This document shows, piece by piece, positions 32,755-47,220 of a DNA stretch of 64,000 bases (position 1 is its first letter; each line of letters starts with the position of its first letter). Under the pieces are notes generated by a model. It was not told the origin of the DNA. It saw only the letters and a program-made list of their open reading frames with translations, and made no database searches. A program made the position numbers and the translations under genes. The DNA comes from Leifsonia poae. Its GTDB lineage: Bacteria > Actinomycetota > Actinomycetes > Actinomycetales > Microbacteriaceae. The DNA lies in assembly GCF_027921845.1 (NCBI RefSeq), contig NZ_BSEN01000001.1, positions 172,948 through 236,947 of the forward strand. Reading direction: 5' to 3'.

Positions 32755-32889
32755 GTCCGTCGCGCCGACACGCTCGCCCGTCACCTGCCCGGGGAATCGT
32801 CTCCTCAGGAAAGCCGTCGTAGGCTGTTCGCACGCCGTGGGGAGCGGCGGTCGGGACGACGACCCGAGATGTGCAGGAGGAGGACGGCC

Positions 32890-33225
32890 GTGGCGGATCA
32901 GGTGCCCACGAGTGTCGAAGTCCTGCGCCAGCAGGCCCGCGACGAGCTGTCCGCCATCATCGAGCACCGCTGCCGCGCCGGCGAGGACCCGTGGCAGTTC
33001 ATCCCAGAACTCCCGAGCGTCGACGAGCAGGTGGTGATCGCCCTCCGCTCGGTCGCGATCGACATGTTCGACCTCGCCGACGAGCAGGCGCGGGCCCACC
33101 ATCCCGCCGCCGGTCGTGCCCTGTTCGTGCGTTTCGAGTACGAGGTGCTGCGCCGCATCGCGCTCGAGCATCCGGAACTCAGCGAGGCGGTGTGGGGCAT
33201 GCTCGACAAGGTCGAGCGCCGCTGA
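32890..33225 (+). CDS. Conserved hypothetical protein, 111 aa
   Basis: No named family recognised. A soluble, mainly helical, acidic protein (SVEVLRQQARDELSAIIEHR near 8-27; FVRFEYEVLRRIALEHPELS near 80-99). GTG 32890 is preferred over ATG 32869 because GGAGGAGGA lies 6 bases upstream. TAGGCT at 32834-32839 or nearby AT-poor sequence may form the promoter; this is uncertain. Confidence 0.7.
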   Translation: MADQVPTSVEVLRQQARDELSAIIEHRCRAGEDPWQFIPELPSVDEQVVIALRSVAIDMFDLADEQARAHHPAAGRALFVRFEYEVLRRIALEHPELSEAVWGMLDKVERR

Positions 33226-33246
33226 GGGAGCCGCGGCAGCCCGCCG

Positions 33247-34026
33247 TCAGCGGGGCGGCAGCAGTTGCCTGAGCGCGTCGAGCAGCGCCGGACGCCACAC
33301 CCCGAAATCGTGGCCGCCGGGGTACTCCCGATAGGTGGCGTGGATCCCCGGCGTGCGGTCGGCGGCCTCGGCGAAGGCCCGCGCCTGGGTCGCGATCGCG
33401 AGGGCCGCCGGTGCGCCGGGATGCGGTGGTTCGGTCCCTCCCGCCGCGACCGCCACCCGCAGGTCGAGGTCGGCGGGATACGCGGCGAGCAGGGCGGGAT
33501 ACGCGAGCTCGCGATAGCGCGCGGGGTCGAACACCACCTGCCCGCTCCCGAACGCTCCGGCCTCCCGTGCGGACGATCCGGCCGGCGGCTCGGGCACGTA
33601 CACGGCGGGACTGAGTGCCGCTACGCCTGAGAAGACGTCCGGATGCGCGAGACCGAGGCGCACGGCACCGTATCCGCCCATCGAGTAGCCGGCGACGATA
33701 CGGTGCGCTCGATCGGCGATCGTCGGGAAGGTCCGGTCGACCTCGGCCACGAGGTCGAAGGCGATGGCGCTCTCGACGGAGCGGCCGGCGGTGTGCTGCG
33801 AGTCGACGTAATAGCTCGCGCGTGCGCTCCAGGGGGCGTCCGGCATGATCGCGATCAGCGGCAGGCGGGCCAGGTCGTCGAGCACGGGCTCCCACGAGGC
33901 GGCCGTGTCACCGCGGCCGTGGAGCAGATAGGCGACGGGCAGCGGTCCCTCGCCTTGCCCTCGCACCACGCGGTACCGCAGTCGCTCGCCGAGGGCGTCG
34001 CTCGCGAACGACCGGTTCGCGATCAC
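33247..34026 (-). CDS. Alpha/beta-hydrolase esterase (esterase D/feruloyl-esterase-like)
   Basis: 259 residues. LLHGRGDTAASWEP forms the oxyanion region, the nucleophile elbow is GYSMGGYGAV near residue 118 and the catalytic histidine is in YPGGHDFGVWR near 244. No signal peptide is seen, so it is cytoplasmic. GTG 34026 overlaps the stop of the CitE-like gene as GTGA, which makes it the last gene of the ribosyl-compound operon. It may deacylate an imported glycoside or a CoA-linked product; the substrate is unknown. Confidence 0.85.
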   Translation of the reverse strand: MIANRSFASDALGERLRYRVVRGQGEGPLPVAYLLHGRGDTAASWEPVLDDLARLPLIAIMPDAPWSARASYYVDSQHTAGRSVESAIAFDLVAEVDRTFPTIADRAHRIVAGYSMGGYGAVRLGLAHPDVFSGVAALSPAVYVPEPPAGSSAREAGAFGSGQVVFDPARYRELAYPALLAAYPADLDLRVAVAAGGTEPPHPGAPAALAIATQARAFAEAADRTPGIHATYREYPGGHDFGVWRPALLDALRQLLPPR

Positions 34027-34838
34027 GGGCGCCCGAGGATGGACCGCGCCCGGCCGAGCATCGCCGGGTCCACCATCTCGCCGGAGTCCAGCGTCGCGAC
34101 GCCGCCGCGCTCGACCGCCTCGACCACGGCGGCGGCCCAGGCGAGCTCGTCCGCTGTCGGTGCGAAGACCGCCTCGATCACGGCGAGCTGGCTCGGATGC
34201 ACGGCGGTGCGTCCCACCCACCCCAGCCGTCGCCCGCGCTCGGTGTCCGCGCGCAGACCGTCCAGATCGCGGATGTCCGGGTAGGCGGACAGCATCGGTG
34301 CGGGGAGCCCGGCCGCGCGGGCCGCGAACAGCAGCCGCACGCGGGCGTAGTCGATCACCGCGTCATCACGGCTTCCCAGCTCGCTGGCGAGATCGGACTC
34401 GCCGAGAGCGAGACGCGTGACAGCCGGATGCGCCGCGATCGCCGCTGCGTTCTCGACACCGCGCGCCGATTCGATCAGTGCCGTGATCGGACGCCCGCCG
34501 GTCAGCGCGGCGATGCGATCGAGCTCGGCGACGCCGTCGACCTTCGGCACCCGCAGCTCGATGGCGGCGCCGGTGGCGCGGAGTGCGGCGAGCTCGTCGT
34601 CGGCGCCCGGGTTGACCCGCACCTGCACGAGGGGCCGGGGCCCATCGTGCGCGCCCGCTGGTGCGACGCGCGCGCGGAGCCAGGACACGACGGCGTCGAG
34701 GGCGACGCCCTTCGCGCCCGGAGCGACGGCGTCTTCGAGGTCCAGGATCACGAGGTCGGCCCCGGTCGCGACCGCCTTATCGAACCGGTCCGGCCGGTCG
34801 CCGGGCACGTAGAGCCCGGTGACGACCCGGGCGCTCAC
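34023..34838 (-). CDS. CitE/HpcH-HpaI family C-C lyase (acyl-CoA lyase-like)
   Basis: 271 residues of the CitE-like TIM barrel. Signature blocks are LYVPGDRPDRFDKAVATGAD near 8-27, VILDLEDAVAP with the metal-binding acids, VRVNP, LRVPKVD, ALIESARGVENA and LALGESDLASELG. GWVGRTAVHPSQLAVIEAVF stands near the end. Stand-alone members cleave malyl-, citramalyl- or similar hydroxyacyl-CoA. The GTG overlaps the CoA-transferase stop (GTGA), so a CoA-transferase/lyase pair acting in sequence is the simplest reading. Confidence 0.88.
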   Translation of the reverse strand: MSARVVTGLYVPGDRPDRFDKAVATGADLVILDLEDAVAPGAKGVALDAVVSWLRARVAPAGAHDGPRPLVQVRVNPGADDELAALRATGAAIELRVPKVDGVAELDRIAALTGGRPITALIESARGVENAAAIAAHPAVTRLALGESDLASELGSRDDAVIDYARVRLLFAARAAGLPAPMLSAYPDIRDLDGLRADTERGRRLGWVGRTAVHPSQLAVIEAVFAPTADELAWAAAVVEAVERGGVATLDSGEMVDPAMLGRARSILGRP

Positions 34839-36022
34839 ACGACCCCCTTCGCCCGCAGAGCGTCGAGTTGGTCGCGGGTCACGCCCACCTCGGCCAGCAC
34901 CTCGTCGGTGTCGCGCCCGTGCGGCCGCCCGGCCCAGCGGATCGCCCCGGGCGTCTCGGAGAGGCGGAACAGCACGTTCTGCATCCTGACCGGCCCGAGC
35001 TCGTCGTCGTCGACCGTCTGCACGGTGCCGATCGCCTGGTATTGCGGATCGGCCAGGATGCCGCGCACGTCGTACACCTGCGCGATCGCGGCCTGGGCAC
35101 GCTCGAACTCGTCGACGACGATCTCGGTCGGGCGGGCGGCGATCCATGCCGAGACGGCGGCGTCGAGCTCATCGGCGTGTTCGGCGCGGGTGTGACCGGA
35201 CGCGAACCACGGCTCGGCGATGAGCTCTGAGCGCCCGACGAGCGTCAGCACCCGTTCGGCGATCGACTGCGAACTCGTCGAGACGGCCACCCAGTCGCCG
35301 TCGGCCGTGCGGTAGACGTTGCGCGGGGCGTTGTTCACCGAGCGGTTCCCGGTGCGCGGCTGCACCGTTCCGAGCTGGTCGTACGCCGTGATCTGCCCGC
35401 CGAGCAGCATCAGGATCGGCTCGATGATCGCCAGGTCGATCACCTGGCCGTGACCGTCGCGTTCGGCGCCGCGCAGCGCCACCATGACCGCGTAGGCCGT
35501 CGAGAGGGCGGCGATTCCGTCGGCGAGACCGAACGGCGGCAGCGTCGGCGGGCCGTCCGGCTCGCCGGTCAGGGCCGCGAAGCCGCTCATCGCCTCGGCC
35601 AGGCTCCCGAAGCCGGGCCGGCCCGAGTATGGCCCGAACTGCCCGAACGCAGTGACGCGCGCGACCACCAGCCGCGGGTTGACCGCGTGCAGGGCATCCG
35701 GTCCCAGCCCCCAGCGCTCGAGCGTGCCGGGGCGGAAGTTCTCGATCAGCACGTCGGCATCGGCCACGAGACGCAGCAGCAGATCGGCGCCGTCGGGCGA
35801 GCCGAGGTCGATCGTCACGGTGCGCTTGTTGCGGCCGAGCGTCTTCCACCAGAGGTTCACGCCGTCTTTGGCCGGACCGTGGCCGCGCGCGGCGTCGGGG
35901 CGCGACGGATGCTCGACCTTGATCACGTCGGCGCCGAAGTCCCCGAGGAACGTCGCCGCCAGCGGACCGGCGAACAGCGTCGACACGTCGAGAACCCGGA
36001 TGCCCTCCAGGGGTGCACTCAT
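34835..36022 (-). CDS. Class III (CaiB/BaiF family) CoA-transferase
   Basis: 395 residues, the family length. The N-terminal Rossmann part shows LEGIRVLDVSTLFAGPLAAT, GADVIKVEHPSRPDAARGHG and ADVLIENFRPGTLERWGL. Asp168 in PPFGLADGIAAL sits at the position of the catalytic aspartate of formyl-CoA transferase. It moves CoA from a donor thioester to an organic acid. The ATG overlaps the FGE-fusion stop by four bases and the CitE-like gene overlaps its own stop. Confidence 0.92.
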   Translation of the reverse strand: MSAPLEGIRVLDVSTLFAGPLAATFLGDFGADVIKVEHPSRPDAARGHGPAKDGVNLWWKTLGRNKRTVTIDLGSPDGADLLLRLVADADVLIENFRPGTLERWGLGPDALHAVNPRLVVARVTAFGQFGPYSGRPGFGSLAEAMSGFAALTGEPDGPPTLPPFGLADGIAALSTAYAVMVALRGAERDGHGQVIDLAIIEPILMLLGGQITAYDQLGTVQPRTGNRSVNNAPRNVYRTADGDWVAVSTSSQSIAERVLTLVGRSELIAEPWFASGHTRAEHADELDAAVSAWIAARPTEIVVDEFERAQAAIAQVYDVRGILADPQYQAIGTVQTVDDDELGPVRMQNVLFRLSETPGAIRWAGRPHGRDTDEVLAEVGVTRDQLDALRAKGVV

Positions 36023-38010
36023 CGCTTCTCCTCCGCGTCTCCGTCTGCGGTGTCGTCCGCGCCGTCCCAGGCGAGCCGGAACCCGATGCTCGACGACCGT
36101 TCGACCCCGAGCCCTGCGAGCACCAGTTTCAGGCTGAACGACGGCTCGCGCAGATCGCCGTCGGTGTACCAGTCCGACCCGCTCGAGACGTGCTCGCTGC
36201 CACCCTTGAGCATGACGAACCGGGTGATGCCGTCGCTGTGCTCGCTCTCCGTCCAGTTCCAGACGGCGGGCGCCCGCCGTTCGAACCCGGCCTGCTCGGC
36301 GGCGAGCTGCCATTCGAACTCCGTCGGGAGCCGCGCGCCCGCCCATCCGGCATAGGCGCGCGCGTCGCCGAGCGAGATGCCTGTGACCGGAGCGTCGAGC
36401 TGCCCGTCGAGTGCCCCGACCAGGAAGCGCGCTTCGACCGTCGGGCGATATCCGGTCGAGCTGAGGAACGCAGCGAACTCGCCGGCGGACACCTCGCGGG
36501 CCGCGACGGCCACCCGTCCCTGGATCGCGACGGCGACGGTCTCCGCGCGGTCGTCGTGCAATCGCGGGGGCAGCGGTTTCCACTCCTCGACGTACGGGGC
36601 GCCCTCGTAGAAGCCCGTCTCGCGTCGCCGGAACGTGACCGTCACCTCGCGCTCGCCCGGCTCGACGATGAGCGCATCCGCCGGTGCCGACGCGGTCGCC
36701 GAGCGCCGAGGGACGACACGCACAGCCGTCTTCGCCGGGAACGTCGCGTCCGTCGACGGAGCGTCGGCCGCACCCTCGGCGAGCAGCGCGCTCAGCTGCG
36801 ACGGAATCGTCGCACCGGGTGCCAGCTCGAGGATGCCGGTGACACCGCGGGCCGGGACCGTCACCGTGCGGACGTCGGAGAGCCCTGCGGTCACGTCGAA
36901 TCGGCGGGATCCCGGCAGCGGATCGACCGCGACAGGGTCTCCTCTCCACGGGGCGGTCCCCCGGTTCACGATCGTCCAGAGCGTGACGCCGTCCCTCGCA
37001 TACCGCGAGACGTATACACCGGCTCGGAGGGCCGACTCCGACGCTCCCTCGAGCGGTGACCACTGCCCCTCGACCAAGAGGTCGGTGAGCGCGCGCTGAA
37101 CGCGCAGCATGCGACGAAGGGTCGACTTGTCGCGTTCGTTCCAGCCGACCCAGACCCCGAAGACGGTGTCCCAGACGAGCATCCCGGTGCCGTTCATCCA
37201 CGCGGACTGCAGTTCATCGCTGTGGTCGCGGTTCCAGCGCCTGGTCGAGTGCATCATGTGGCGTCGTTCGTACCAGTGGGCGCGCATGACGCCGGGCGCG
37301 TCGGAGTCGGCGAACCACTGCGCCCAGCTCAGCTGGTGATCCTCGACCCTGGCGTTCGGCACACGGGACTCGCCCTCGAGCACCTGCGGCGGGTGTGCGT
37401 TCCTCAGCGCGTCGATCAGGCGCGAGTCGCCCTCCTTCATGGTGTCGAGGAAGACGCCGTCGACACCCAGGTCCTCGACCAGGGCCGCGAGTTCGGCCGC
37501 GTCATCACCGGCGGCGCGCCGTGTGCCGGTGTCCCACGGGTTGTAGTCGACGAACACGCGGACGCCGCGCGCGTGCAGGCGGGCGACCACGGCATCCAGG
37601 CCCGGGACGTCCCGATAGAAGTCGAACTGGTTGCGGTCGTCGATGCCGATCAGCGGGTACGCGTGCCAGAGCACGACGCCGTCGAGACCGCCGTGATCGG
37701 AGACGCTGTCGAGGAACGCGTCGACCGTGAACCGCTGGCGTTCATGGTCGAAGAGCCGCTCGTCCCACAGCCAGATCTGCGCGACGCTGTACGCCCGTCG
37801 CGCCCAGCCGGTCTCGTCGCGCTCGTAGGCGTCGCCGCTGTACGCGAGGCGTTCCCTGGCCTCGGTGCGCCACGTCGCGAGATCGGCGCGCCAGGCCGGC
37901 CAGTCGGCTGGATCGTCGGGGGCCGCGAAGATCTTCGCGATGTCTCCGACCGCCGGGTCGATCGCGCCTCCGACGGGGAGCACGGTGGGCAGGTCGATCG
38001 CGCGCGGCAC
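36019..38010 (-). CDS. TIM-barrel (glycoside-hydrolase-like) protein fused to a cysteine-free FGE-like domain
   Basis: 663 residues. Residues ~70-330 look like a glycoside-hydrolase-type barrel: GVVLWHAYPLIGIDDRNQFDFY near 111-132 in two blocks, ARGVRVFVDYNPWDTGTR near 147-164, LGVDGVFLDTMKEGD near 181-195. A beta-rich linker follows. Residues ~495-655 resemble the formylglycine-generating-enzyme/SUMF1 fold (REVSAGEFAAFL, RLPTEFEWQLAAEQAG, MLKGGSEH, SIGFRLAWDG). No cysteine occurs in the whole protein, so FGE-type oxidase chemistry is not possible; the domain may bind ligand. The GTG 38010 start lacks a ribosome-binding site, and the frame stays open upstream to the ribokinase end with no standard start. 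Confidence 0.75.
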   Translation of the reverse strand: MPRAIDLPTVLPVGGAIDPAVGDIAKIFAAPDDPADWPAWRADLATWRTEARERLAYSGDAYERDETGWARRAYSVAQIWLWDERLFDHERQRFTVDAFLDSVSDHGGLDGVVLWHAYPLIGIDDRNQFDFYRDVPGLDAVVARLHARGVRVFVDYNPWDTGTRRAAGDDAAELAALVEDLGVDGVFLDTMKEGDSRLIDALRNAHPPQVLEGESRVPNARVEDHQLSWAQWFADSDAPGVMRAHWYERRHMMHSTRRWNRDHSDELQSAWMNGTGMLVWDTVFGVWVGWNERDKSTLRRMLRVQRALTDLLVEGQWSPLEGASESALRAGVYVSRYARDGVTLWTIVNRGTAPWRGDPVAVDPLPGSRRFDVTAGLSDVRTVTVPARGVTGILELAPGATIPSQLSALLAEGAADAPSTDATFPAKTAVRVVPRRSATASAPADALIVEPGEREVTVTFRRRETGFYEGAPYVEEWKPLPPRLHDDRAETVAVAIQGRVAVAAREVSAGEFAAFLSSTGYRPTVEARFLVGALDGQLDAPVTGISLGDARAYAGWAGARLPTEFEWQLAAEQAGFERRAPAVWNWTESEHSDGITRFVMLKGGSEHVSSGSDWYTDGDLREPSFSLKLVLAGLGVERSSSIGFRLAWDGADDTADGDAEEKR

Positions 38011-38052
38011 CAGCGGATCGAAGTCGTTGGTGTTCTCCTCGTCCGGATCGAA

Positions 38053-38106
38053 CGGAAGGGCCGGGTCCGGCCGAAGGGCCGGGTCGGGCCGGAAGGCCGG
38101 GTCAGC
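38053..38106. repeat. Three 18-bp repeats between rbsK and the TIM-barrel/FGE gene
   Basis: Three imperfect 18-bp units (38053-38070, 38071-38088, 38089-38106) built on GAAGGGCCGGGTC. On the minus strand, in the frame of the TIM-barrel/FGE gene, they read as D-P-A-(L/F)-R-P repeats. They are therefore either an untranslated spacer or a low-complexity N-terminus initiated at a non-standard codon. Confidence 0.75.
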
Positions 38107-39037
38107 TGGTCGCGCGGAAATCGTGAATCTCCTCGAGTGTGGGAATGGAGGGGACGGCGCCCGGCCGCTGCACGGAGAGCGCGGCCGCGACAGTGGCGAA
38201 CGCGGCGGCGTCGACGAGCCGGCCGAGATCGGGTCGCCCGCCGCCGCTGCGGTCGAGCTCGGCGACCAGTGCCCCGCAGAAGGTGTCGCCGGCGCCGGTG
38301 GTGTCGACGGCGTCGACCGGGTGGCCGGCGACGTGCGCCGGAGGCTCCCCGGGAACGCAGACGAGTGCGCCGCGGGAGCCGAGGGTGATGATCACGGCGA
38401 GCCCGAGGGAGCTCAGCACCTGGGCGAGCTCCTCCTCATCGGCGCGTCCGCGGAACGCACCGTGCGTGTCGGCGGCCAGCTGCGCCGCCTCGTGCTCGTT
38501 GACGATGAGCAGGTCGACCGTGCTGAGCAGCTCCGCCGGGAGCGGCCGGATGGGCGCGGCGTTCAGCACGACCGTCGCTCCGGCGGCGTGCCCGACGCGG
38601 GCGGCCCGTTCGACGGTCTCGAGCGGCGTCTCCAGCTGGAGCAGCAGCACATCCGCGCCGGCGATGAGGTCGCGCTCGACGTCGGTGAGGTCGACGAGCG
38701 TCCGGTTGGCGCCGGAGTCGACGACGATCGCGTTCTCGGCGCCGTCGTCGACGGTGATCACCGCGGTTCCGGTGGGCCGATCGCTGCGCCGCACGCGCAG
38801 GTCGACGCCGGCCTCGATGAGTCCGGCCTCGAGCCGGTCTCCCGCTGCGTCGTCGCCGATGGCGGCGATGAACGTCGCCTCGCCTCCGGCGCGGGCCACG
38901 GCGGTGACCTGATTGTTGCCCTTGCCTCCGGGAGCGGAGTCCGCGCCCGTCGCCAGGACGGTCTCACCGGGCGCGGGGATGCGCTCGACCCGATACACCA
39001 GGTCGAGATTGGCGCTTCCGACGACGACGACGCTCAT
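38102..39037 (-). CDS. rbsK: Ribokinase (PfkB family sugar kinase)
   Basis: 311 residues. GGKGNNQ at residues 37-43 binds the sugar and DTTGAGDTFCGAL near 250 holds the catalytic Asp and anion hole, both of ribokinase type. SANLDLVYRVERIPAPGETV is the typical N-terminus. It phosphorylates ribose (or a close pentose) at O5. The ATG overlaps the stop of the second ADP-ribosylglycohydrolase gene. In this operon it probably traps the sugar released by the glycohydrolases. Confidence 0.92.
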   Translation of the reverse strand: MSVVVVGSANLDLVYRVERIPAPGETVLATGADSAPGGKGNNQVTAVARAGGEATFIAAIGDDAAGDRLEAGLIEAGVDLRVRRSDRPTGTAVITVDDGAENAIVVDSGANRTLVDLTDVERDLIAGADVLLLQLETPLETVERAARVGHAAGATVVLNAAPIRPLPAELLSTVDLLIVNEHEAAQLAADTHGAFRGRADEEELAQVLSSLGLAVIITLGSRGALVCVPGEPPAHVAGHPVDAVDTTGAGDTFCGALVAELDRSGGGRPDLGRLVDAAAFATVAAALSVQRPGAVPSIPTLEEIHDFRATS

Positions 39038-40413
39038 CGCGTGGCCGCCGGTGCCGGAGCCAGCGCGACGGTGCGCGCCGCGAGGTCGGTGAAGCGCGCT
39101 CCCGCGAAGCCGGGCACGCTCGTGGCGAGGGTGTCGTGCAGAGGACGGGTCCACCTGCCGGGGAGGCCGCGCGCGCCGGTCAGGGCGCCCGTGATCGAGC
39201 CGACGGTCGCCCCGACCGAGTCGGTGTCCCACCCTCCGCTCACCGCGAGGGTGATCGAGCGTTCGAAGTCGCCGTCGCCGCGGGTCAGGGCGAAGGCCAG
39301 CAGCGCGGAGTTGCTGAGCGCGTGCACCCAGTGCAGCTTTCCGAACTCGGCGTGCAGCGCGTCGACGGCGGCCTCGTCGTCGAGGTCTCCGGCGCCCAGT
39401 TCGACACCACGCGCGATCGCGGCCGCGTAGCGACTTCCGGCGGGGACCACGGAGCATCCGGCGGCCACGACCTCCGAGACCGACGTCGCGACCACCGCGG
39501 CGGAGCAGGCGGCCGCCGCGAACATCGCGCCGTACAGGCCGCTGCGCCCGTGACTCAGCCGACCGTCGGTCCACGCGAGCCGTGCGGCCGCGACCGGGTC
39601 GCCCGGGTTCACCCAGCCGTAGACGTCGGTGCGGATCTGCGCGCCGATCCAGTCCCTGAACGGGTTCTGCACGGCTCCGGCCACGTCGGGCTCGTAGCCG
39701 TCGAGCAGGTTGCGGTAGGTGATGCGCTCGGCCGTGAAGACCCGGCCACCCGGCAGGTCGTCCAGCCAGGCCTGAGCGACGTCGTCGGTCGTGAAGCCGG
39801 TGCCGATCCGCTCGAGCAGCCCGAGCGCGATGAGCGGGAAGTTGAGGTCGTCGTCCTCCGGCATCCCGTCGATGTTCTCGACGAGGCTCGTCGGGCGGCT
39901 TCTGCGGTTCCACGGATAGCGGGCCGCGATGTCCGGATCGAGTCCGACCTCGGTGAAGTACGAGGCGATCGGCCAGTTGCCGGTGGAGCGTCCGATGGCC
40001 CGGATGCCCTCCAGCGAGATCTTCTCCACCGGCTTGCCGAGCAGACAGCCGGATGCGCGGCCCAGCCAGGCGCCGAGCACGCGATCGTCGAGGTCGGCGG
40101 GCTGCATTTCCGGTGCAGGCGCCGCCCACACCGCCGGCGCTGCCGCCAGGATCGCGTCGAGGTCATCGGGTTCTGCGGCCACCAGCGCAGCCGGAGCCGG
40201 CCGCTGGTCGATCTCTGCGAGGAGCTCGCGAGCCAGCGCGCGCAGCGGGTCGGGCGCCGGTTCGGGCGTCGCGCCGCTCACCGCTGCATCGGGCGTTCCG
40301 CCCGCGGCGACCCATCGCGAGCGCAGGTCGGCGACGTCACGGCCGTCGAACTCGGCGGCGACGAGAGCGTGCGGAAGGAGGTCCTCCGGCTGCGTCCAGC
40401 TCAGCCGGAGCAT
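39034..40413 (-). CDS. ADP-ribosylglycohydrolase family protein, divergent, with N-terminal extension
   Basis: 459 residues. About 110 N-terminal residues of unassigned sequence precede an ARH/DraG-type domain starting at DDRVLGAWLGRASGCLLGKPVE. Motifs are altered: the usual TDDT is replaced by PEDDDLNFPL near 183-192, while the C-terminal metal site SGGWDTDSVGATVGSITGAL is intact. It probably hydrolyses an N- or O-glycosidic bond to ribose with two metal ions. Its ATG abuts the stop of the neighbouring paralogue (TAGATG), so the two are made together. Confidence 0.88.
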   Translation of the reverse strand: MLRLSWTQPEDLLPHALVAAEFDGRDVADLRSRWVAAGGTPDAAVSGATPEPAPDPLRALARELLAEIDQRPAPAALVAAEPDDLDAILAAAPAVWAAPAPEMQPADLDDRVLGAWLGRASGCLLGKPVEKISLEGIRAIGRSTGNWPIASYFTEVGLDPDIAARYPWNRRSRPTSLVENIDGMPEDDDLNFPLIALGLLERIGTGFTTDDVAQAWLDDLPGGRVFTAERITYRNLLDGYEPDVAGAVQNPFRDWIGAQIRTDVYGWVNPGDPVAAARLAWTDGRLSHGRSGLYGAMFAAAACSAAVVATSVSEVVAAGCSVVPAGSRYAAAIARGVELGAGDLDDEAAVDALHAEFGKLHWVHALSNSALLAFALTRGDGDFERSITLAVSGGWDTDSVGATVGSITGALTGARGLPGRWTRPLHDTLATSVPGFAGARFTDLAARTVALAPAPAATR

Positions 40414-41565
40414 CTAGGCGACCTCGAGATCGGCGGCGAACGCCGAGCGCGACGCGGCGGTGCGGCTCGCCCGGTCGGCGTCGGCCGCCCAGACGTCCCG
40501 CGCGACCGAGGCGATCACGGAGCCGGTGGCGGTGATGTCCATGCGGCTGCCCTCGCTCACGCCGTCGACCCACTCGGCCGGCACGGCGTCGATGCCGTCG
40601 AGCGCACCGGCCAGCGATCCCGCCATCACGGCGATCGAGTCGGAGTCGCGGCCGTAGTTGATGGACCCGAGAACCGCCTCGCGGTAATCCCCCTGTGCGG
40701 CGACGAGCATGCCCAGAGCGATCGGCAGCTCCTCGATCGACTTGGTGCGGCTGGGGATGCGGGCATCCCGAGCGGGCTGGCGGTAGTTCGGCCCCACGGT
40801 GTCGAACGGCGTCACCGCCGCGCGGAGCACGCCGAGCCCGCCGCGCCAGTCGGAGATGCCCGAGGCCGCCTCGACGACAGCGTCGATCGCGTCACGCGTG
40901 CCGTCCTTGGCCAGCCGGAGCGCCGTGTCCACGACATCGGCGACGCTGGCGCCCGGGCGCATCGCCTCGGCGACGGCCGCGGCGTAGACACCGGCCGCCT
41001 CCCGGCCGTAGCTGGACTGGTGGGCGCCGGCGACGTCGATCGCCTCGGCGTACGCCGCCTCCGGTGCGCCGGCGTTGACGATCCCGATCGGCGCGACGTA
41101 CATGGTCGCGCCGCAGTTGACGATGTTGCCGACACCGGCCTCGCGGGGGTCGATGTGACCGTAGTGCAGGCGCGCGACCAGCCACTTCTCCGCGAGGAAG
41201 ATGCGGTGCAGAAGCAGGCCCTCCGACTCGAACTCGGGGATCCAGCGCTTGTCGCCGATCAGCAGCGGCACCAGGTGGTCGGCGATCGCGTAGGCGTCGA
41301 GGTGATCGCGCACCGTGTCGTAGACGTCGACGAGTGCCGTGGTCATCAGGGTGTCGTCGGTGACGTGCCCGTCGCCCTTGTGGTACGGCGCGATCGGGCG
41401 GGCGTTGCGCCAGTCTTCGAGGAACGGCGGGACGATGCCGGTGATGAAGCCGTCGTAGCGTTCCTGGATGGCGTCGGGCGTGTTGCCCTCCGCCGCTCCA
41501 CCGAGCGCGTCGCCCACTGCCGCGCCCGCGAGCGCCCCCGTCGCCTTCGTGACCAGCGCGTCCAT
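40414..41565 (-). CDS. ADP-ribosylglycohydrolase family protein, canonical motifs
   Basis: 383 residues. GALAGAAVGDALGG at 10-23, HVTDDTLMTTAL with TDDT at 69-72 and INYGRDSDSIAVMAGSLAGAL near the C-terminus supply the two-metal site of the ARH/DraG fold. In a sugar-import operon it more likely acts on a small ribosyl compound than on ADP-ribosylated protein (inference). AAGGAGAAGG stands 3 bases before the ATG. It is the first gene after the binding-protein gene, behind a 122-bp gap with a stem-loop. Confidence 0.9.
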   Translation of the reverse strand: MDALVTKATGALAGAAVGDALGGAAEGNTPDAIQERYDGFITGIVPPFLEDWRNARPIAPYHKGDGHVTDDTLMTTALVDVYDTVRDHLDAYAIADHLVPLLIGDKRWIPEFESEGLLLHRIFLAEKWLVARLHYGHIDPREAGVGNIVNCGATMYVAPIGIVNAGAPEAAYAEAIDVAGAHQSSYGREAAGVYAAAVAEAMRPGASVADVVDTALRLAKDGTRDAIDAVVEAASGISDWRGGLGVLRAAVTPFDTVGPNYRQPARDARIPSRTKSIEELPIALGMLVAAQGDYREAVLGSINYGRDSDSIAVMAGSLAGALDGIDAVPAEWVDGVSEGSRMDITATGSVIASVARDVWAADADRASRTAASRSAFAADLEVA

Positions 41566-41631
41566 AACCTTCTCCTTTGTGTTTCTACTGTCTTATCGCT
41601 CGACGCCCGTACGGCTCCCGTCGGGTCCGAA

Positions 41632-41666
41632 CTGTTGCGCCCGATCAGCCGATCCCGACGCAACAG
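41632..41666 (-). other. Stem-loop between binding-protein and glycohydrolase genes
   Basis: CTGTTGCG (41632-41639) and CGCAACAG (41659-41666) are perfect 8-bp inverted arms around a 19-base loop, flanked on both sides by GTCCGAA. There is no U-tract, so it is not a classic terminator. It could be an attenuator or an mRNA-stabilising hairpin that raises binding-protein output relative to the downstream enzymes. Confidence 0.5.
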
Positions 41667-41687
41667 GTCCGAAACTCGAAGACGGGG

Positions 41688-42980
41688 TCAGCCGAGCGCC
41701 TTCCAGCCGTCGGTGAGCTGCTTCTTGAGCTCGTCGAGGCTGATCGCGTTCGCCAGGTATTTCTGCAGGGCCGGCGTCGCGTACTGGTCCTTCCACTGCG
41801 GGTAGCCGGTGGCCGCCTGGAACGGTGCCGCCTTCAGCTCGTCGCCCGACTTCAGGATGGTGTCCCAGCCGTTCTTGCCTGCGGTGTCCTTCGCGACCTG
41901 CGTGCGCGCCGCAGCCGACGCCGGGATCAGCCAGTCGCCCTCTGCGAGCTTGGCCTGGTTCTCCGCGCCCATGAAGTAGTCGATGAACTTCGCAGCCTGT
42001 TCGACGTGCTTGCTCTGGGCCGAGACCGACATGGTCTGCGGGTTGGCCGCCTGGGCGGCGCCGTCCGACCCCGCCAGCGGCGGGAGCACGGTCCAGTTGA
42101 AGCCGGACGGAGCGGACTCGGTGATCTGCTGGGCCACGTAGTTGCCGCCGACGTACATGCCGTACTTCCCGCCGAAGAAGCCGGGGAGCACATCCGTGCC
42201 GCTCTGGGTCAGGGAGACCGGGTCGAGCGACTTGTCGGTGTAGGCCATGTCGTGGATGCGGTTCGGGACCTGCAGCTCGTCGTCGCCGACGTGGATGGTC
42301 GATTTGCCGTCCTTGTTGTCGAAGAACGTGCCGCCGAAGCCGAGCGCGAGGTTCATCACTGTCGCCGTCGGCTGCTTCATGCCCCAGCCGGTGCCGAAGT
42401 TCCCGCCCGAGGTGAGCTTCTTCGACAGGCTCTGGAAGTCATCCCAGCTCATCGACGACCCGGTGGGAGCGGTCGCGCCGGCCTTCTTCAGCGCGTCGGT
42501 GTTCGCGAACACGACGTACGACTGCAGCAGCGTCGGGGCGGCGACGATCTTGCCGTCGCCGGTGGTCACCGAGCTCCAGACGTCTTTCGAGACCTCCTTC
42601 TTGACGTCGTCGCTCAGATACTTGCTGAGGTCGGCGAGGTAGCCCTGGCCGGCGAACCCCATGATGTCGGCCGACTCGTCGTGGATGATGTCGGGAGCGG
42701 TGCCGCCCTGGAACTGCGTGACCAGCTGGTCGTGCACGTTGTCCCAGCTGCCCTGCTGGAGCTTCACCTGGATGTTCGGGTTCGCCTTGTTCCAGGAGTC
42801 GACGATGCTCTTCGTCGCGGCGACGGTGGTGTCCTGGTAGGCCAGCGACTGGAAGGTCAGCGTGACTTTGCCGCCGCTCGACGAGTCGGAACCCGACGAC
42901 GAGCAGCCGGCGAGCGCGAGCGACGCGGCCACGATGCCGGCGAGCGCGATGCCCGTGCGGGCGAGGATCTTGTTGCGCAT
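41688..42980 (-). CDS. ABC sugar transporter substrate-binding lipoprotein (family 1)
   Basis: 430 residues. The signal peptide ends in the lipobox LALAG-Cys26, followed by a Ser/Gly linker, so it is anchored outside the membrane. VKLQQGSWDNVHDQLVTQFQ and GTAPDIIHDE are typical of maltose/oligosaccharide-type binding proteins. The ATG at 42978-42980 follows GAGAGAAAG. It delivers ligand to the two permeases encoded just upstream; no ATPase gene is in the operon, so a shared MsiK-type ATPase is likely (inference). Confidence 0.93.
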   Translation of the reverse strand: MRNKILARTGIALAGIVAASLALAGCSSSGSDSSSGGKVTLTFQSLAYQDTTVAATKSIVDSWNKANPNIQVKLQQGSWDNVHDQLVTQFQGGTAPDIIHDESADIMGFAGQGYLADLSKYLSDDVKKEVSKDVWSSVTTGDGKIVAAPTLLQSYVVFANTDALKKAGATAPTGSSMSWDDFQSLSKKLTSGGNFGTGWGMKQPTATVMNLALGFGGTFFDNKDGKSTIHVGDDELQVPNRIHDMAYTDKSLDPVSLTQSGTDVLPGFFGGKYGMYVGGNYVAQQITESAPSGFNWTVLPPLAGSDGAAQAANPQTMSVSAQSKHVEQAAKFIDYFMGAENQAKLAEGDWLIPASAAARTQVAKDTAGKNGWDTILKSGDELKAAPFQAATGYPQWKDQYATPALQKYLANAISLDELKKQLTDGWKALG

Positions 42981-43051
42981 TGCTTTCTCTCTTTCGGATG
43001 GAGTGCGGAGGTGATGCAGAGGTGCGGTGATGCGGTGGTGGTGCGGTGCGC

Positions 43052-43963
43052 CTAGCCTTTGACGGCGCCGCTGAGCAGCCCGGAGGTCAGGCGTTTCTGG
43101 ATGAGCAGGAAGAAGACCAGGCTCGGGATGGTCGCCAGCAGCGAAGCCGCGGCGAGCTGCCCCAGCTGCACCTGTCCTTCGGCGCCGACGAAGCGGGCGA
43201 GGGCGAGGGGCAGGGTCTGCAGGTTGGGGTCCTGGATCAGCACGAGGGCGAAGAAGAACTCGTTCCACGCGGAGATGAAGGTGAACAGGCTGGTGGCGAC
43301 CAGGCCGGGCGCGAGCAAGGGCAGCACGATGGTGCGCAGCGTGCGGAAACGACTCGCGCCATCCATCGCGCCCGCCTCTTCGAGCTCGACCGGGATGCCG
43401 GCGACGTAGCCCTGCAGCATCCACAAGGCGAACGGCAGCGACCACACCGTGTAGACGAGCACCAGCCCGAAGAGGTTGTTGATCAGGCCGATGTTCTTGA
43501 GCACCAGGAACAGCGGGATGATGATCAGGATGAACGGGAACACCTGGCTCAGCAGGATCCAGCCGGTGGCGATCCCCCGCAGCTTGGTGCGGAAGCGGGC
43601 CAGCGCGTAGGCCGCCGGAAGCGAGATGGCCGTCACCAGGACCGTGGTGGAGACGGCGACGATCAGGCTGTTGCCTGCGGCCGTGAACAGGTTCGCCTTC
43701 TCGATCGCCTGCACGAAGTTGTCCCAGTTCAGGCTCGTCGGCAGGAACCCGGGGTTCGGCGACTGCAGTTCCTGCGGCGTCTTGAACGCCGTCGTGAGCA
43801 GGAACAGCAGCGGGAACGCGAGGAAGATCATGTAGGCGAACAGCGCGACGTACTGCAGCGGCCGGCCGATCAGGCGACCCCGCCGGATGGAGGCGCTGTG
43901 CGACTTCTCCGGCGAACCGGAGGGCGCGGACGACGATGTCGGGCGGTTCTCGAGGGTGGTCAT
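43052..43963 (-). CDS. ABC sugar transporter permease, MalG type
   Basis: 303 residues with six membrane segments. The EAA loop is ELEEAGAMDGASRFRTLRTI near 195, and the C-terminus LLSGAVKG is typical of CUT1 MalG-like permeases. The ATG overlaps the stop of the MalF-like gene by four bases. Confidence 0.94.
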   Translation of the reverse strand: MTTLENRPTSSSAPSGSPEKSHSASIRRGRLIGRPLQYVALFAYMIFLAFPLLFLLTTAFKTPQELQSPNPGFLPTSLNWDNFVQAIEKANLFTAAGNSLIVAVSTTVLVTAISLPAAYALARFRTKLRGIATGWILLSQVFPFILIIIPLFLVLKNIGLINNLFGLVLVYTVWSLPFALWMLQGYVAGIPVELEEAGAMDGASRFRTLRTIVLPLLAPGLVATSLFTFISAWNEFFFALVLIQDPNLQTLPLALARFVGAEGQVQLGQLAAASLLATIPSLVFFLLIQKRLTSGLLSGAVKG

Positions 43964-44916
43964 GAGTTACGGCTCCTCATCTGGCCGCGCAGGTAGACGA
44001 ACAGGAAGATCGCGATCACGATGACCATGACGTTGCCCATCGCCGCGGCGTAGCCGAAGTTGCCGTAGCGGAACGCCTCGTTGTAGGCGAAGAGCATCGG
44101 CAGCATCGTTGTCCCTCCCGGGCCGCCAGCGGTGAGCACGTAGACCAGTGCGAACGAGTTGAAGTTCCAGATCAGGTCGAGCGTCGTGATGGCGACGATG
44201 ATGGGCCGCAGGGCGGGAAGCGTGACGTGCCAGAACCGCTTCCAGGCGCCGGCGCCGTCGATCGAGGCGGCCTCGTGCAGTTCGGCCGGCACGTTCTGCA
44301 GGCCGGCGAGCAGCGTGATCGTGGTCTGCGGCATCCCCGCCCAGACACCCACGATGATCACGACGGGCAGAGCGATGGAGGCGTTGCCGAGCCAGTTGAT
44401 GTCGCTCGGCAGACCCACGGCGTGCAGCGACTGGTTGATCGGCCCGTAACTCGGGTTGAGCATCAGGCGCCACATGATGGCGATGATCACGGGCGGCATC
44501 GCCCACGGCACGAGGGCGAGGGTGCGGGCGAGCCAGCGCAGCCGAAGGTTCAGATTGAGGAGGAGCGCGAGGCCGAGCGAGGCGAGGAACTGCAGGATCG
44601 TCACGCTGAAGGCCCAGACGAGGCCGATGCCGAACGAGCTCCAGAACAGCTGGTTGCCGCTGAGCTTCACGTAGTTGTCGACGCCGTTGAAGTTCACCGG
44701 CAGGTTGAGCCCGGCACGGGCATCCGTGAAGCCGAGCAGGATGCCCTGGACCAGCGGGTAGACGCTGAACAGCACGACCGGGATCAACGCCGGGAGGACG
44801 AGCAGCCACGCGTCCTTCCCACCGCCGCCCGCGGGTCCTCCCCGGTTGCGCTTACGGCGCTTGGGCGTCTTGGCAGCATCGCCCGGAGCGATCACCACGG
44901 GTGCGGCCGTCGTCAT
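43960..44916 (-). CDS. ABC sugar transporter permease, MalF type
   Basis: 318 residues. A basic, Gly-rich N-terminus precedes six membrane segments; the EAA loop is ELHEAASIDGAGAWKRFWHV near 215. CUT1-family MalF-like permease. The ATG overlaps the lacI stop (ATGA), so the repressor and transporter are translated in sequence. Confidence 0.94.
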   Translation of the reverse strand: MTTAAPVVIAPGDAAKTPKRRKRNRGGPAGGGGKDAWLLVLPALIPVVLFSVYPLVQGILLGFTDARAGLNLPVNFNGVDNYVKLSGNQLFWSSFGIGLVWAFSVTILQFLASLGLALLLNLNLRLRWLARTLALVPWAMPPVIIAIMWRLMLNPSYGPINQSLHAVGLPSDINWLGNASIALPVVIIVGVWAGMPQTTITLLAGLQNVPAELHEAASIDGAGAWKRFWHVTLPALRPIIVAITTLDLIWNFNSFALVYVLTAGGPGGTTMLPMLFAYNEAFRYGNFGYAAAMGNVMVIVIAIFLFVYLRGQMRSRNS

Positions 44917-45935
44917 ACGGTCACCTCCGCCAGCACCGAGGACTCCCGGACCGACAGGGTCGGTTCGATCACCACCTGCTTCACGGGCGCACCGGGATCT
45001 GCGAGGCGCCGGATGAGCAGCTTCGCGGCTGCCTTCGCACGCTTTGCCGAACCGAGGTCGACGCTGGTGATCGAGGGATTGGCGAGCTCGGCGGCATCCG
45101 TGTCGTCCATGCCGACGACGGCCACGTCGTCGGGGACGCGGATCCCCCGGCTCGTGAGCTCTTTGAGGGTTGCGACGGCCAGCAGGTCGTTCGCGCAGAC
45201 GATCGCGTCCGGCGACGACTGCGCGAGCAGACGCGCGGCCGCCTTGCGCCCTGCCTTGTAGGTGAAGTCCGAGGCCGTGACCTGCAGGTCGGCGGTGGTC
45301 GTGAGGCCGAATCGCTCGATGGAGGTCAGATATCCGCTGAGTCGAGCCGCACCGGGGACGGTGTCGACGGGGCCGTTGACGAACGCGATGTGCTTGCGGC
45401 CCTGCTCGACCAGGTGCTCGACGGCGAGCCCGATGCCGGCGACCGAGTCGGCCCGTACGTTGTCGAGTTCGACGCCGGCCGGCAGCGAACCGATGATCAC
45501 GATCGGGAGCCGGCTCGACCGCAGTGCAGCGACCAGCGGCTCGGTGACGCGCAGCGGGCTGAGCAGGAGCCCGTCGGCGAAGCCTCGGTTGAGGCTCGAG
45601 AGCAGTTCGATCTGGTCCTGCGGATCGTTACCGGTCGACGAGAGCACGAGGCGGAACCCGGCCTTGGAGACGACGCGCGACACCTCGTGCATCATGGCGA
45701 CGTAGACGGGGTTTCCGACGTCGGCGACGGCGAAGGCGATCTGGTCGGTCCGCCCGACTTTGAGCGAGCGTGCGGTGGCGTCGGGCACGTAGCCCAGGGC
45801 TTCCGCCGCTTCGCGCACCTTCTCGGTGAGCTGCGGCGAGGCCGGCAGCCCGTTCAGCACGCGGGAGACCGATGCGATCGATACTCCGGCGCGCTCGGCC
45901 ACGAGGACGAGCGTCGACTTCCTGGTCTCGACCAC
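44913..45935 (-). CDS. LacI-family transcriptional repressor of the ribosyl-compound operon
   Basis: 340 residues. The N-terminal LacI helix-turn-helix is LVLVAERAGVSIASVSRVLN near 10-29, with the hinge helix near 50-60. A periplasmic-binding-type sensor domain follows (IVIIGSLPAGVELDNVRADS, VGMDDTDAAELANPSITSVD). The start GTG 45935 is preferred over ATG 45953/45950 because AGGGAG lies 7 bases upstream. It is the first gene of the operon it probably controls, through the operator at 45963-45987. Confidence 0.9.
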   Translation of the reverse strand: MVETRKSTLVLVAERAGVSIASVSRVLNGLPASPQLTEKVREAAEALGYVPDATARSLKVGRTDQIAFAVADVGNPVYVAMMHEVSRVVSKAGFRLVLSSTGNDPQDQIELLSSLNRGFADGLLLSPLRVTEPLVAALRSSRLPIVIIGSLPAGVELDNVRADSVAGIGLAVEHLVEQGRKHIAFVNGPVDTVPGAARLSGYLTSIERFGLTTTADLQVTASDFTYKAGRKAAARLLAQSSPDAIVCANDLLAVATLKELTSRGIRVPDDVAVVGMDDTDAAELANPSITSVDLGSAKRAKAAAKLLIRRLADPGAPVKQVVIEPTLSVRESSVLAEVTV

Positions 45936-45962
45936 TGGTGCTCCCTGCATCATCGAAGGTTC

Positions 45963-45987
45963 GTAAACGTTTACAAGAACGTTTACA
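45963..45987. promoter_or_regulatory. LacI operator, full palindrome plus half-site
   Basis: GTAAACGTTTAC at 45963-45974 is a perfect 12-bp palindrome with the central CG typical of LacI-family operators. AACGTTTAC at 45979-45987 repeats its right half 13 bp downstream. It lies 28-52 bp upstream of the lacI start codon, where binding would block the promoter of the whole operon, giving autoregulation. Confidence 0.8.
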
Positions 45988-46044
45988 GAGACGATAGCAC
46001 ATCGCAGATCGAGGGTGACGAACGGATCAGTGCAGAAGGCGGGG

Positions 46045-46344
46045 CTACGAGGCCGTTCGCCCGCGAGCGTCGGCGGCCGCGGCCGGCACGGCGTCGCGTT
46101 CCGGCTGCTCGACCTGGGCCCACAGCGCGTCGAGGGAGAGCCCGAGGACGGCGGCGATCGCGGCGATGGTCGGGAAGGCGGGGGTCGCCACCCTGCCCGT
46201 CTCGATCTTGCGGAGCGTCTCGGGCGAGATGCCGGCATCGAGCGCGGTGTGGAGCATCGAGCGCTCGCCCCTGGCCTGCCGCAGCAGGGCGCCGAGCCGT
46301 TCTCCGCGTTCGACGTCCGCGGGCGTGAGGGGCAACCTGACCAT
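46045..46344 (-). CDS. XRE-family helix-turn-helix regulator
   Basis: 99 residues. A helix-turn-helix at about 18-70 (RLGALLRQARGERSMLHTAL, then AGISPETLRKIETGR and TIAAIAAVLGLSLDALW) and an Ala-rich tail. It is divergent from the methionine aminopeptidase-like gene, which it probably regulates; XRE/map pairs recur in actinobacteria. TACAAT (46357 to 46352) lies 7 bases before the ATG, a leaderless layout. Confidence 0.88.
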   Translation of the reverse strand: MVRLPLTPADVERGERLGALLRQARGERSMLHTALDAGISPETLRKIETGRVATPAFPTIAAIAAVLGLSLDALWAQVEQPERDAVPAAAADARGRTAS

Positions 46345-46360
46345 GGTTCCGATTGTAGTA

Positions 46361-46403
46361 CCGGGATAGAAGTGCTGGGATAGTCTGACCGGTATAGTTA
46401 TCG
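46361..46403. promoter_or_regulatory. Three 14-bp-spaced repeats between xre and map promoters
   Basis: CCGGGATAG, CTGGGATAG and CCGGTATAG start at 46361, 46375 and 46389, with an exact period of 14 bp. The third contains TATAGT (46393-46398), a good -10 for the map-like gene. The array adjoins the TACAAT -10 of xre on the other side. It is probably the binding site of the XRE protein controlling both directions. Confidence 0.65.
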
Positions 46404-46449
46404 GTACCGTGAGATCCGGCAGGCGTGAGATCCATCAGAGAGGCACCAC

Positions 46450-47220
46450 ATGATCGAGATCCTGAACCCCGACGAACTGGCGCGAGCCCGCGAGACCGGG
46501 GCCCTGGTCGGCGGCATTCTGCGCTCGCTGAAGAGCCGCGTCACGGTCGGCACGAACCTCCTCGACATCGACGACTGGGCCGAGACGATGATCGTCGGCG
46601 CCGGAGCGCAGTCCTGTTACGTCGACTACGCGCCGTCGTTCGGGCGCGGTCCGTTCGGCCACCACATCTGCACGGCCGTCAACGATGCGGTGCTCCACGG
46701 GCTCCCGCACGACTACGCGCTCGCCGACGGCGATCTGCTGACCCTCGACCTCGCCGTCTCGCTGCACGGAGTCGCAGCGGACTCCGCCATCAGCTTCGTC
46801 GTGGGCGCATCGCAGCCCCCGGAGAGTGTCGCGCTGATCGGCGCGACCGAACGGGCGCTGAGCGCCGGCATCGCCGCGGCGGCCCCCGGAGCGCGCATCG
46901 GCGACATCTCCTCCGCCATCGGCTCCGTCCTGAGCGCGGCGGGGTACCCGATCAACCTCGAGTTCGGCGGACACGGGATCGGATCGACGATGCATCAGGA
47001 CCCGCACGTCTCGAACAGCGGACGGCCGGGCCGAGGCTACCGGCTCCGCCCGGGCCTCCTCCTCGCCTTGGAGCCGTGGGTCATGGCCGACACCGACGAG
47101 CTCGTCACCGACGCGGACGGGTGGACGCTGCGAAGCGCGACCGGCTGCCGCACGGCCCACAGCGAGCACACGATCGCCATCACCGCCGGCGGCGCCGAGA
47201 TCCTCACTCTGCCGAGCTAG
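46450..47220 (+). CDS. map: Type I methionine aminopeptidase-like M24 protein
   Basis: 256 residues of the pita-bread fold. Metal ligands are visible as the two Asp of LLTLDLAVSLHGVAADSAI near 97-115, His in FGGHGIGSTMHQ near 175-186, Glu in LALEPWV near 200 and Glu in TAHSEHTIAI near 238. It lies next to an XRE regulator rather than in the usual adk-map ribosomal cluster, so it is probably a second, regulated copy. GAGAGG lies 6 bases before the ATG, and two CGTGAGATCC repeats (46408, 46424) lie in the leader. Confidence 0.88.
   Translation: MIEILNPDELARARETGALVGGILRSLKSRVTVGTNLLDIDDWAETMIVGAGAQSCYVDYAPSFGRGPFGHHICTAVNDAVLHGLPHDYALADGDLLTLDLAVSLHGVAADSAISFVVGASQPPESVALIGATERALSAGIAAAAPGARIGDISSAIGSVLSAAGYPINLEFGGHGIGSTMHQDPHVSNSGRPGRGYRLRPGLLLALEPWVMADTDELVTDADGWTLRSATGCRTAHSEHTIAITAGGAEILTLPS

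Follow-up and report, generated by a model that had tools for sequence, protein, structure and literature searches.

An operon of Leifsonia poae combines ADP-ribosylhydrolase-fold proteins with a sugar importer, a ribokinase-like protein and a CoA-transferase/lyase pair

Layout of the operon

A stretch of 64,000 nucleotides from Leifsonia poae (RefSeq assembly GCF_027921845.1, contig NZ_BSEN01000001.1, positions 172,948 to 236,947; called the window throughout) contains an operon in which two proteins of the ADP-ribosylhydrolase (ARH) fold are encoded beside a sugar importer and enzymes of coenzyme A (CoA) chemistry. Gene calls together with Pfam and NCBIfam profiles show eleven closely packed minus-strand genes that together span 33247–45953 and run from a LacI-family regulator to an esterase. 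An earlier note on this DNA had described eleven minus-strand genes with mostly overlapping or abutting junctions, and the gene coordinates agree; the start given there for LacI, 45987, is corrected to an ATG at 45953 or a GTG at 45935. In the direction of transcription the features are:

45963..45974, no strand: palindromic LacI-type operator GTAAACGTTTAC, 9 bases ahead of the lacI ATG
44913..45953, minus: LacI-family regulator (PF00356, PF13377); GTG start at 45935 also possible
43960..44916, minus: CUT1 permease, MalF type (PF00528)
43052..43963, minus: CUT1 permease, MalG type (PF00528)
41688..42980, minus: lipoprotein solute-binding protein (PF01547; best solved relative Lmo0181, E 3.5e-22)
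40414..41565, minus: ARH1, ARH-fold hydrolase (PF03747, E 1.5e-48, 166.4 bits against a cut-off of 26.2; T-D-D and D-x-D-S motifs intact)
39034..40413, minus: ARH2, ARH-fold hydrolase (PF03747, 160.4 bits, cut-off 26.2; D-D-D and D-T-D-S motifs)
38102..39037, minus: ribokinase-like PfkB kinase, RbsK (TIGR02152, 272.9 bits, below the cut-off of 299.65)
36019..38121, minus: fusion of a GH13-like (β/α)8 glycosidase domain and a cysteine-free domain resembling formylglycine-generating enzyme (FGE); probable ATT start at 38121-38119, the listed open reading frame starting at GTG 38010
34835..36022, minus: class III (CaiB) CoA-transferase (PF02515, E 8.1e-120, 400.7 bits, cut-off 23.3)
34023..34838, minus: CitE-type CoA-ester C–C lyase (PF03328)
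33247..34026, minus: α/β-hydrolase esterase (PF00756, E 5.5e-21)

The ten junctions comprise six 4-base overlaps (LacI/MalF, MalF/MalG, ARH2/RbsK, fusion/CaiB, CaiB/CitE and CitE/esterase), the abutment TAGATG between ARH1 and ARH2, a 20-base overlap of RbsK with the fusion gene, provided that the latter begins at ATT 38121, and just two intergenic gaps, of 71 bases (MalG to binding protein) and 122 bases (binding protein to ARH1). A single terminator-like site lies within 32900–46300, on the plus strand, and no Rfam family scored over threshold within 32800–46500. The 122-base gap folds modestly better than shuffled sequences (z -1.64; 12 of 200 shuffles equally good); with folding this modest and no Rfam match, an RNA element inside the operon was rejected. 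An ARAGORN call of a tRNA-Val at 34763–34844 (minus strand), within CitE, is probably false because it lacks Rfam support.

A LacI operator had been proposed at the head of the operon, and the sequence found there, GTAAACGTTTAC, is indeed a perfect palindrome and the sole match at up to two mismatches in the window, where 0.07 were expected and 7 of 100 shuffles had one. A match at the same limit lies near lacI in 58 of 70 related loci, a count made without a shuffled control, and many of these are shaped GGAAACGTTTCC. At 46045–46344 (minus), just ahead of lacI and in the same orientation, inspection by eye showed a gene for a small helix-turn-helix-like protein.

The operon encodes no ATPase for its importer; the best UgpC-like ATPase of the same genome is found at C1:441727–442740 and is 55% identical to a rhizobial UgpC. 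The relatives of the binding protein were rejected as a guide to the ligand, since the 30 solved ones (best E 3.5e-22) are named for differing sugars and none is singled out.

Conservation of the gene set

Related loci were collected at three levels. The phylum set came from a pattern scan of one genome per species (84,980 species), from which the best 80 of at least 522 relatives were taken; because they were chosen by ARH2 similarity, the set leans to close relatives. Setting aside 13 without enough flanking DNA left 67 complete loci. The order sample held 198 genomes, 54 with an ARH2 match at E ≤0.001, and the family sample was an even draw of 299 Microbacteriaceae genomes, from which 15 complete loci were fetched, L233 (a 7.5 kb contig) being excluded. 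The 80 include two of the 12 order loci and four of 16 family loci (3 of the 15 counted).

Among the 67 actinobacterial loci ARH1 is present in 66, LacI, MalF, MalG, the binding protein, CaiB and CitE in 65 each, RbsK in 58, the fusion in 57, the esterase in 17, and two additional ARH genes, ARH3 and ARH4, in 14 each. The linkage of ARH, CaiB and CitE holds in 65 of these loci, across many genera. CaiB and CitE stand beside ARH1 and ARH2 in all 12 order loci (ribokinase in 7, fusion in 11, esterase in 3) and occur in 14 of the 15 Microbacteriaceae loci (fusion 14, RbsK 7, esterase 7). The earlier note had treated the CaiB/CitE part as belonging with the ARH part, and the neighbourhoods show the two conserved together; a chance or purely local linkage is rejected, as the set recurs in order, phylum and family loci. 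Eight of the 20 regions fetched from the order sample (L044–L051; ARH2 at 26–42%), which stand outside the 12, lack this gene set, several having an ARH beside an importer.

In the genus, ARH1 occurs in 7 of 28 species, L. poae included, and six loci were fetched. Three congeneric species (L252–L254) have all eleven genes in the same order, and two loci (L255 and L257) carry an ARH1–ARH4 form. The genes that flank the operon in the window are seen at L254 alone of the six, which suggests that the unit is often lost, gained or moved with its core mostly together. The operon genes are under purifying selection, with dN/dS between 0.07 and 0.40 over 33 gene comparisons of the window with L252–L254, the lowest values being those of LacI, MalF and CaiB. 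Pairwise distances of nine operon proteins are correlated (r 0.68–0.95, with CitE and the binding protein as the lowest pair), a correlation that includes species history because no housekeeping control was used. At the sixth congeneric locus (L256:5300-10200) a decaying copy was seen by eye, with a stop within ARH1, CaiB lost and the fusion running into CitE.

More distant relatives were found on Hyphomicrobiales plasmids, where ten loci were read of 20 records with an ARH1 match. All ten have ARH1 (aligned pieces 35–48% identical) together with matches to LacI and permeases, and eight have a second ARH; CaiB and CitE are present in four (L133, L140, L143 and the broken L141), and L139 has a downstream ribokinase. 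Deinococcus aetherius and Mycolicibacterium arabiense encode an ARH, an annotated ribokinase and CUT1 importer genes, with no CaiB or CitE match, and ARH genes in importer operons without CaiB/CitE were seen also in Agrobacterium, in Nonomuraea, and at L255 and L257. A Sphingopyxis plasmid carries a row of a TonB receptor, a ribokinase (49%), a homologue of the fusion (30%), a GH127-family protein and a CaiB (34%); no ARH or CitE match was found in this cluster.

The ARH-fold proteins and the GH13-like fusion

Both hydrolases of the window keep the metal-type motifs of their family, T69-D-D and D307-x-D-S in ARH1 and D187-D-D and D396-T-D-S in ARH2, whose residues we take to be metal ligands. 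ARH2 is extended at its N terminus by about 100 residues. Its structural model (pLDDT 93.7) matches the known hydrolase ARH3 (6hh3; Z 32.2, root-mean-square deviation (rmsd) 2.8, 305 aligned) and DraG (3o5t; Z 30.1), mostly over residues 101–456.

Nine of the 67 complete operons lack the fusion gene and all nine encode the additional ARH3 and ARH4; a further five loci have the fusion and ARH3/ARH4 together. The tenth locus without the fusion, L099, has a lone ARH2–RbsK pair, and L246, L255 and L257 again have no fusion and carry ARH3 and ARH4. The ARH3 of these variant operons retains the metal-type motifs. In the two ARH4 proteins examined (L070:12416-13411 and L077:7749-8831) the C-terminal D-x-D is missing from the aligned position, and in that of L070 the N-terminal motif is missing as well; with motifs degenerate in this way these proteins may be non-catalytic partners of ARH3.

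The probable start codon of the fusion is a rare ATT at 38121, which would give a protein of 700 residues. This codon (38119-38121, minus) is preceded by GAGGAG, no in-frame ATG, GTG or TTG lies upstream of the conserved protein start in the window, and the ATT is retained in L252, L253 and L256, L254 having a GTG at about the same position. The Pfam scan gave no glycoside hydrolase family at E ≤0.001. The best matches of the structural model (pLDDT 85.9) are GH13 enzymes, among them neopullulanase 1j0j (Z 19.7, rmsd 3.6, 322 aligned), in a match list for the whole model that is filled by its barrel. The candidate catalytic residues are Asp189 and Glu214, which all 43 aligned rows share and which, by eye, the Sphingopyxis homologue also keeps.

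PF03781 covers residues 501-589 of the fusion only, corresponding to profile positions 38-136 of 255. Formylglycine-generating enzymes need a catalytic, copper-binding cysteine pair, and the 700-residue protein contains no cysteine at all, so that an FGE oxidase role was rejected. Cysteines do occur in its relatives: 36 of 43 rows carry one within the FGE-like part, and 4 of the 43 carry one in the segment aligned to residues 599-636. Of the TIM-barrel/FGE fusion proposed previously, the barrel stands, as a GH13-like glycosidase fold, and the FGE function falls.

The CoA-dependent branch, the kinase and the esterase

The nearest NCBIfam model to CaiB is succinate-glutarate CoA-transferase (233 of 750 bits), and succinate-hydroxymethylglutarate CoA-transferases (9br6 and 9br7) are among its best solved relatives. 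Asp168, a candidate for the catalytic Asp of class III transferases (Asp169 in formyl-CoA transferase), is invariant in 13 of 13 rows, and profile positions 1-214 match 1-215 of 1p5h. For CitE the nearest model is RipC/Ccl (NF038242), at 149.9 bits against an equivalog cut-off of 375, and the nearest solved structures are the acyl-CoA lyases 8khl (best, E 2.5e-39) and 9nzb, presumably the citramalyl-CoA lyase of Pseudomonas. In a midpoint-rooted tree of every second ARH-linked CaiB row plus the named ones (42 of 76), a branch supported at 99/92 sets all 42 actinobacterial ARH-linked CaiBs apart from the remaining sequences. Judged from this sample, the association of CaiB with ARH looks old, with a single origin within Actinomycetota.

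Of 396 phylum genomes searched for CaiB, 47 gave a strong match. Thirteen of the CaiB loci read have no ARH1: MmgE/PrpD and a PF04199 cyclase each stand beside CaiB at 11 of them, an allantoinase-like amidohydrolase at 10, CitE at 9, an FAD-dependent dehydrogenase at 7 and an Asp/Glu racemase-like protein at 4; one of the 13, L182, supplied queries for these counts, and five of the 20 regions (L183–L186 and L198) were without a usable CaiB call. These ARH-free clusters would form a branched, unsaturated dicarboxylate whose hydration gives a citramalate-type acid, and would share the CaiB–CitE end with the window operon. The presence of MmgE/PrpD and CitE beside such CaiB relatives suits a hydroxy acid such as citramalate, and as the window operon has no hydratase the acid should be released already hydroxylated.

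The kinase aligns over its length, including the ribose-site and A-G-D regions, to solved ribokinases (6znx, 8cqx, 1gqt and 3ry7; E ≤6.8e-50), and the residues concerned are presumably ribose-binding. In Nocardioides terrae (L082:12309-15086) the GH13-like/FGE-like protein is fused to the esterase in a polypeptide of 925 residues, a joining that hints that both act on one substrate, and the esterases of L033 (815 residues) and L101 (709 residues) are long, with β-propeller repeats.

Proposed pathway

The reading that we favour, at a little under an even chance, is that the LacI-controlled operon imports and splits a glycoside of a furanose and a hydroxy-dicarboxylic acid, and burns both halves. 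In the predicted scheme, which covers the substrate, the order of the cuts, the sugar, the acid and every reaction, the CUT1 binding protein and permeases, served by a separately encoded ATPase of the MsiK/UgpC type, would take up a furanose, probably D-ribose, joined glycosidically to a hydroxy-dicarboxylic acid that central metabolism could not use directly. Inside the cell the GH13-like protein would join ARH1 and ARH2 in cleaving the glycosidic bonds, and the esterase, where encoded, would remove an acyl group. Ribokinase would convert ribose to ribose 5-phosphate. CaiB would place CoA, with succinyl-CoA the probable donor, onto the acid, and CitE would split the resulting acyl-CoA into acetyl-CoA and a 2-oxo acid, which would be pyruvate if the acid is of the citramalate type. 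The CaiB–CitE pair at some Hyphomicrobiales loci and the ribokinase at L139 suit two halves of one substrate. Catabolism of a sugar–acid conjugate had been suggested before: the linkage in 65 of 67, 12 of 12 and 14 of 15 loci sustains the single catabolic unit, and the sugar and the acid are named here only as candidates. A wider proposal, that many actinobacterial genera and some Hyphomicrobiales plasmids share an undescribed pathway in which ARH-fold enzymes serve as digestive glycosidases on ribosides of branched hydroxy-dicarboxylic acids, is more tentative, and we would put it at not much better than one chance in three.

Several observations weigh against the favoured reading. The unit is sparse and scattered: a close ARH2 (55–61% identity) occurs in 13 of the 198 order genomes, that of L. 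poae included, ARH1 in 18 of the 299 Microbacteriaceae genomes, and the fusion in just one genome of the 396 sampled from the phylum. CaiB and CitE are missing near ARH1 at L052, L138, L246, L255 and L257, the genome of L052 having no CaiB above 48% identity elsewhere. They are missing also from six of the ten Hyphomicrobiales loci; L132, L134, L135 and L144 lack both them and a full ribokinase match, and at L142 the only ribokinase match lies upstream on the opposite strand. Two ARH-linked CaiBs from rhizobia sit on a long branch apart from the actinobacterial group, and none of the ten operon proteins scanned reached an NCBIfam equivalog cut-off. Ribokinase is absent, at the score limits of the scripts, from 9 of 67, 5 of 12 and 8 of 15 loci, which makes the ribose half of the earlier note's reading less firm; the esterase, too, is mostly missing. 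A less common acid must be assumed, because plain malate or citrate would not need CaiB and CitE, and a targeted literature search for a riboside of a citramalate-type acid found nothing relevant.

Alternative explanations

An ester-linked acid, such as 3-hydroxy-3-methylglutarate or citramalate esterified to a plant glycoside, is an unlikely alternative, in which the esterase would free the acid, CaiB and CitE would burn it, and the ARH and GH13-like enzymes would merely trim sugars. It would account for an esterase within the operon (17 of 67 phylum and 7 of 15 family loci), for the fusion of this enzyme to the GH13-like protein in Nocardioides terrae and its two long copies with β-propeller repeats, and for 9br6 and 9br7 among the relatives of CaiB. 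However, no esterase was found in 50 of the 67 loci, and its dN/dS (0.36-0.40) exceeds that of the other ten genes in all three comparisons.

Similarly improbable is a furanose other than ribose, such as a 1,2-cis pentofuranose like β-L-arabinofuranose, with the kinase as an accessory. The optional occurrence of the kinase and its score below the family cut-off fit this, as does the GH127 (β-L-arabinofuranosidase family) protein of the ARH-free Sphingopyxis cluster. Nevertheless, the kinase aligns over its full length to solved ribokinases, annotated ribokinases accompany the ARH genes of Deinococcus and Mycolicibacterium too, and genes for a pentose isomerase or epimerase are missing from the window operon.

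We regard as less probable than either of these a mixed diet, in which the acid would arrive unbound together with the sugar (in root exudate, for instance) and the operon would be co-regulated for both. CaiB and CitE do occur in ARH-free clusters and are missing from some ARH operons, but the window operon encodes no separate acid transporter and the linkage is held in 65 of 67 loci from many genera. Finally, that the ARH genes de-ADP-ribosylate proteins and have sugar genes as incidental neighbours is very improbable: fold and motifs match the known ARH3 and DraG, yet the scores fall far below the equivalog cut-offs for DraG (ARH1 36.1 and ARH2 27.0 bits; cut-off 337.05) and Tri1 (44.7 and 25.5 bits; cut-off 490), ARH genes are linked to sugar importers in Actinomycetota, Hyphomicrobiales and Deinococcus, and up to four of them stand in one importer operon.

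Relation to known systems

ARH-fold proteins are annotated by default as ADP-ribosylglycohydrolases. The operon proteins resemble DraG, ARH1, ARH3 and Tri1 (PF03747) in metal-type motifs and, as judged from the ARH2 model, in fold; they differ in standing in sugar-import operons, in pairs or fours, and in the N-terminal extension of ARH2. In Actinobacteria, CUT1 sugar-utilisation operons are served by a shared MsiK ATPase. The window operon is like these in its LacI, binding protein, two permeases and lack of an ATPase gene, with a UgpC-like ATPase elsewhere, and unlike them in adding ARH hydrolases and a CoA-dependent branch. Its CitE is closest to the Ccl/RipC model of itaconate and citramalate degradation (NF038242; 8khl, 3qll), but the operon has no itaconyl-CoA hydratase gene and its transferase partner is of class III. 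The CoA-transferases closest to CaiB, succinate-glutarate (best NCBIfam model) and succinate-hydroxymethylglutarate (among the best solved), belong to another genomic setting. In Escherichia coli yegTUV, too, an ARH gene is grouped with genes for a transporter and a sugar kinase, and the function of yegTUV is given as unknown in the part of PMC10819704 consulted; it has three genes, a symporter rather than an ABC importer, and no CoA-transferase or lyase.

A full-text search of open-licence PMC articles found no literature on this gene set. The coupling, in one conserved operon, of ARH proteins with a sugar importer, a CoA-dependent C–C lyase and often a ribokinase makes a testable case that some ARH proteins are catabolic glycosidases, and it predicts a sugar–acid compound for which many actinobacterial genera and some rhizobia find the gene set worth keeping. 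If true, this would give the ADP-ribosylhydrolase superfamily a metabolic role and point to a new class of environmental compound.

Two minor observations concern ARH and CaiB proteins in other settings. A 700-residue rhizobial ARH consists of one ARH domain (D-D-D and W-D-T-D motifs) and a C-terminal region without a Pfam match, and on a Rhizobium plasmid (L146:8584-9972) an ARH-family protein adjoins a BMP-type ABC importer, a transporter family linked to nucleosides, in what would be another metabolic setting for the fold. The ARH1-free CaiB loci (L182:6424-16822 with the 12 loci L187-L197 and L199) form a second recurrent CaiB cluster type, often with CitE, which may represent a further pathway not yet described, perhaps one for an N-heterocycle.

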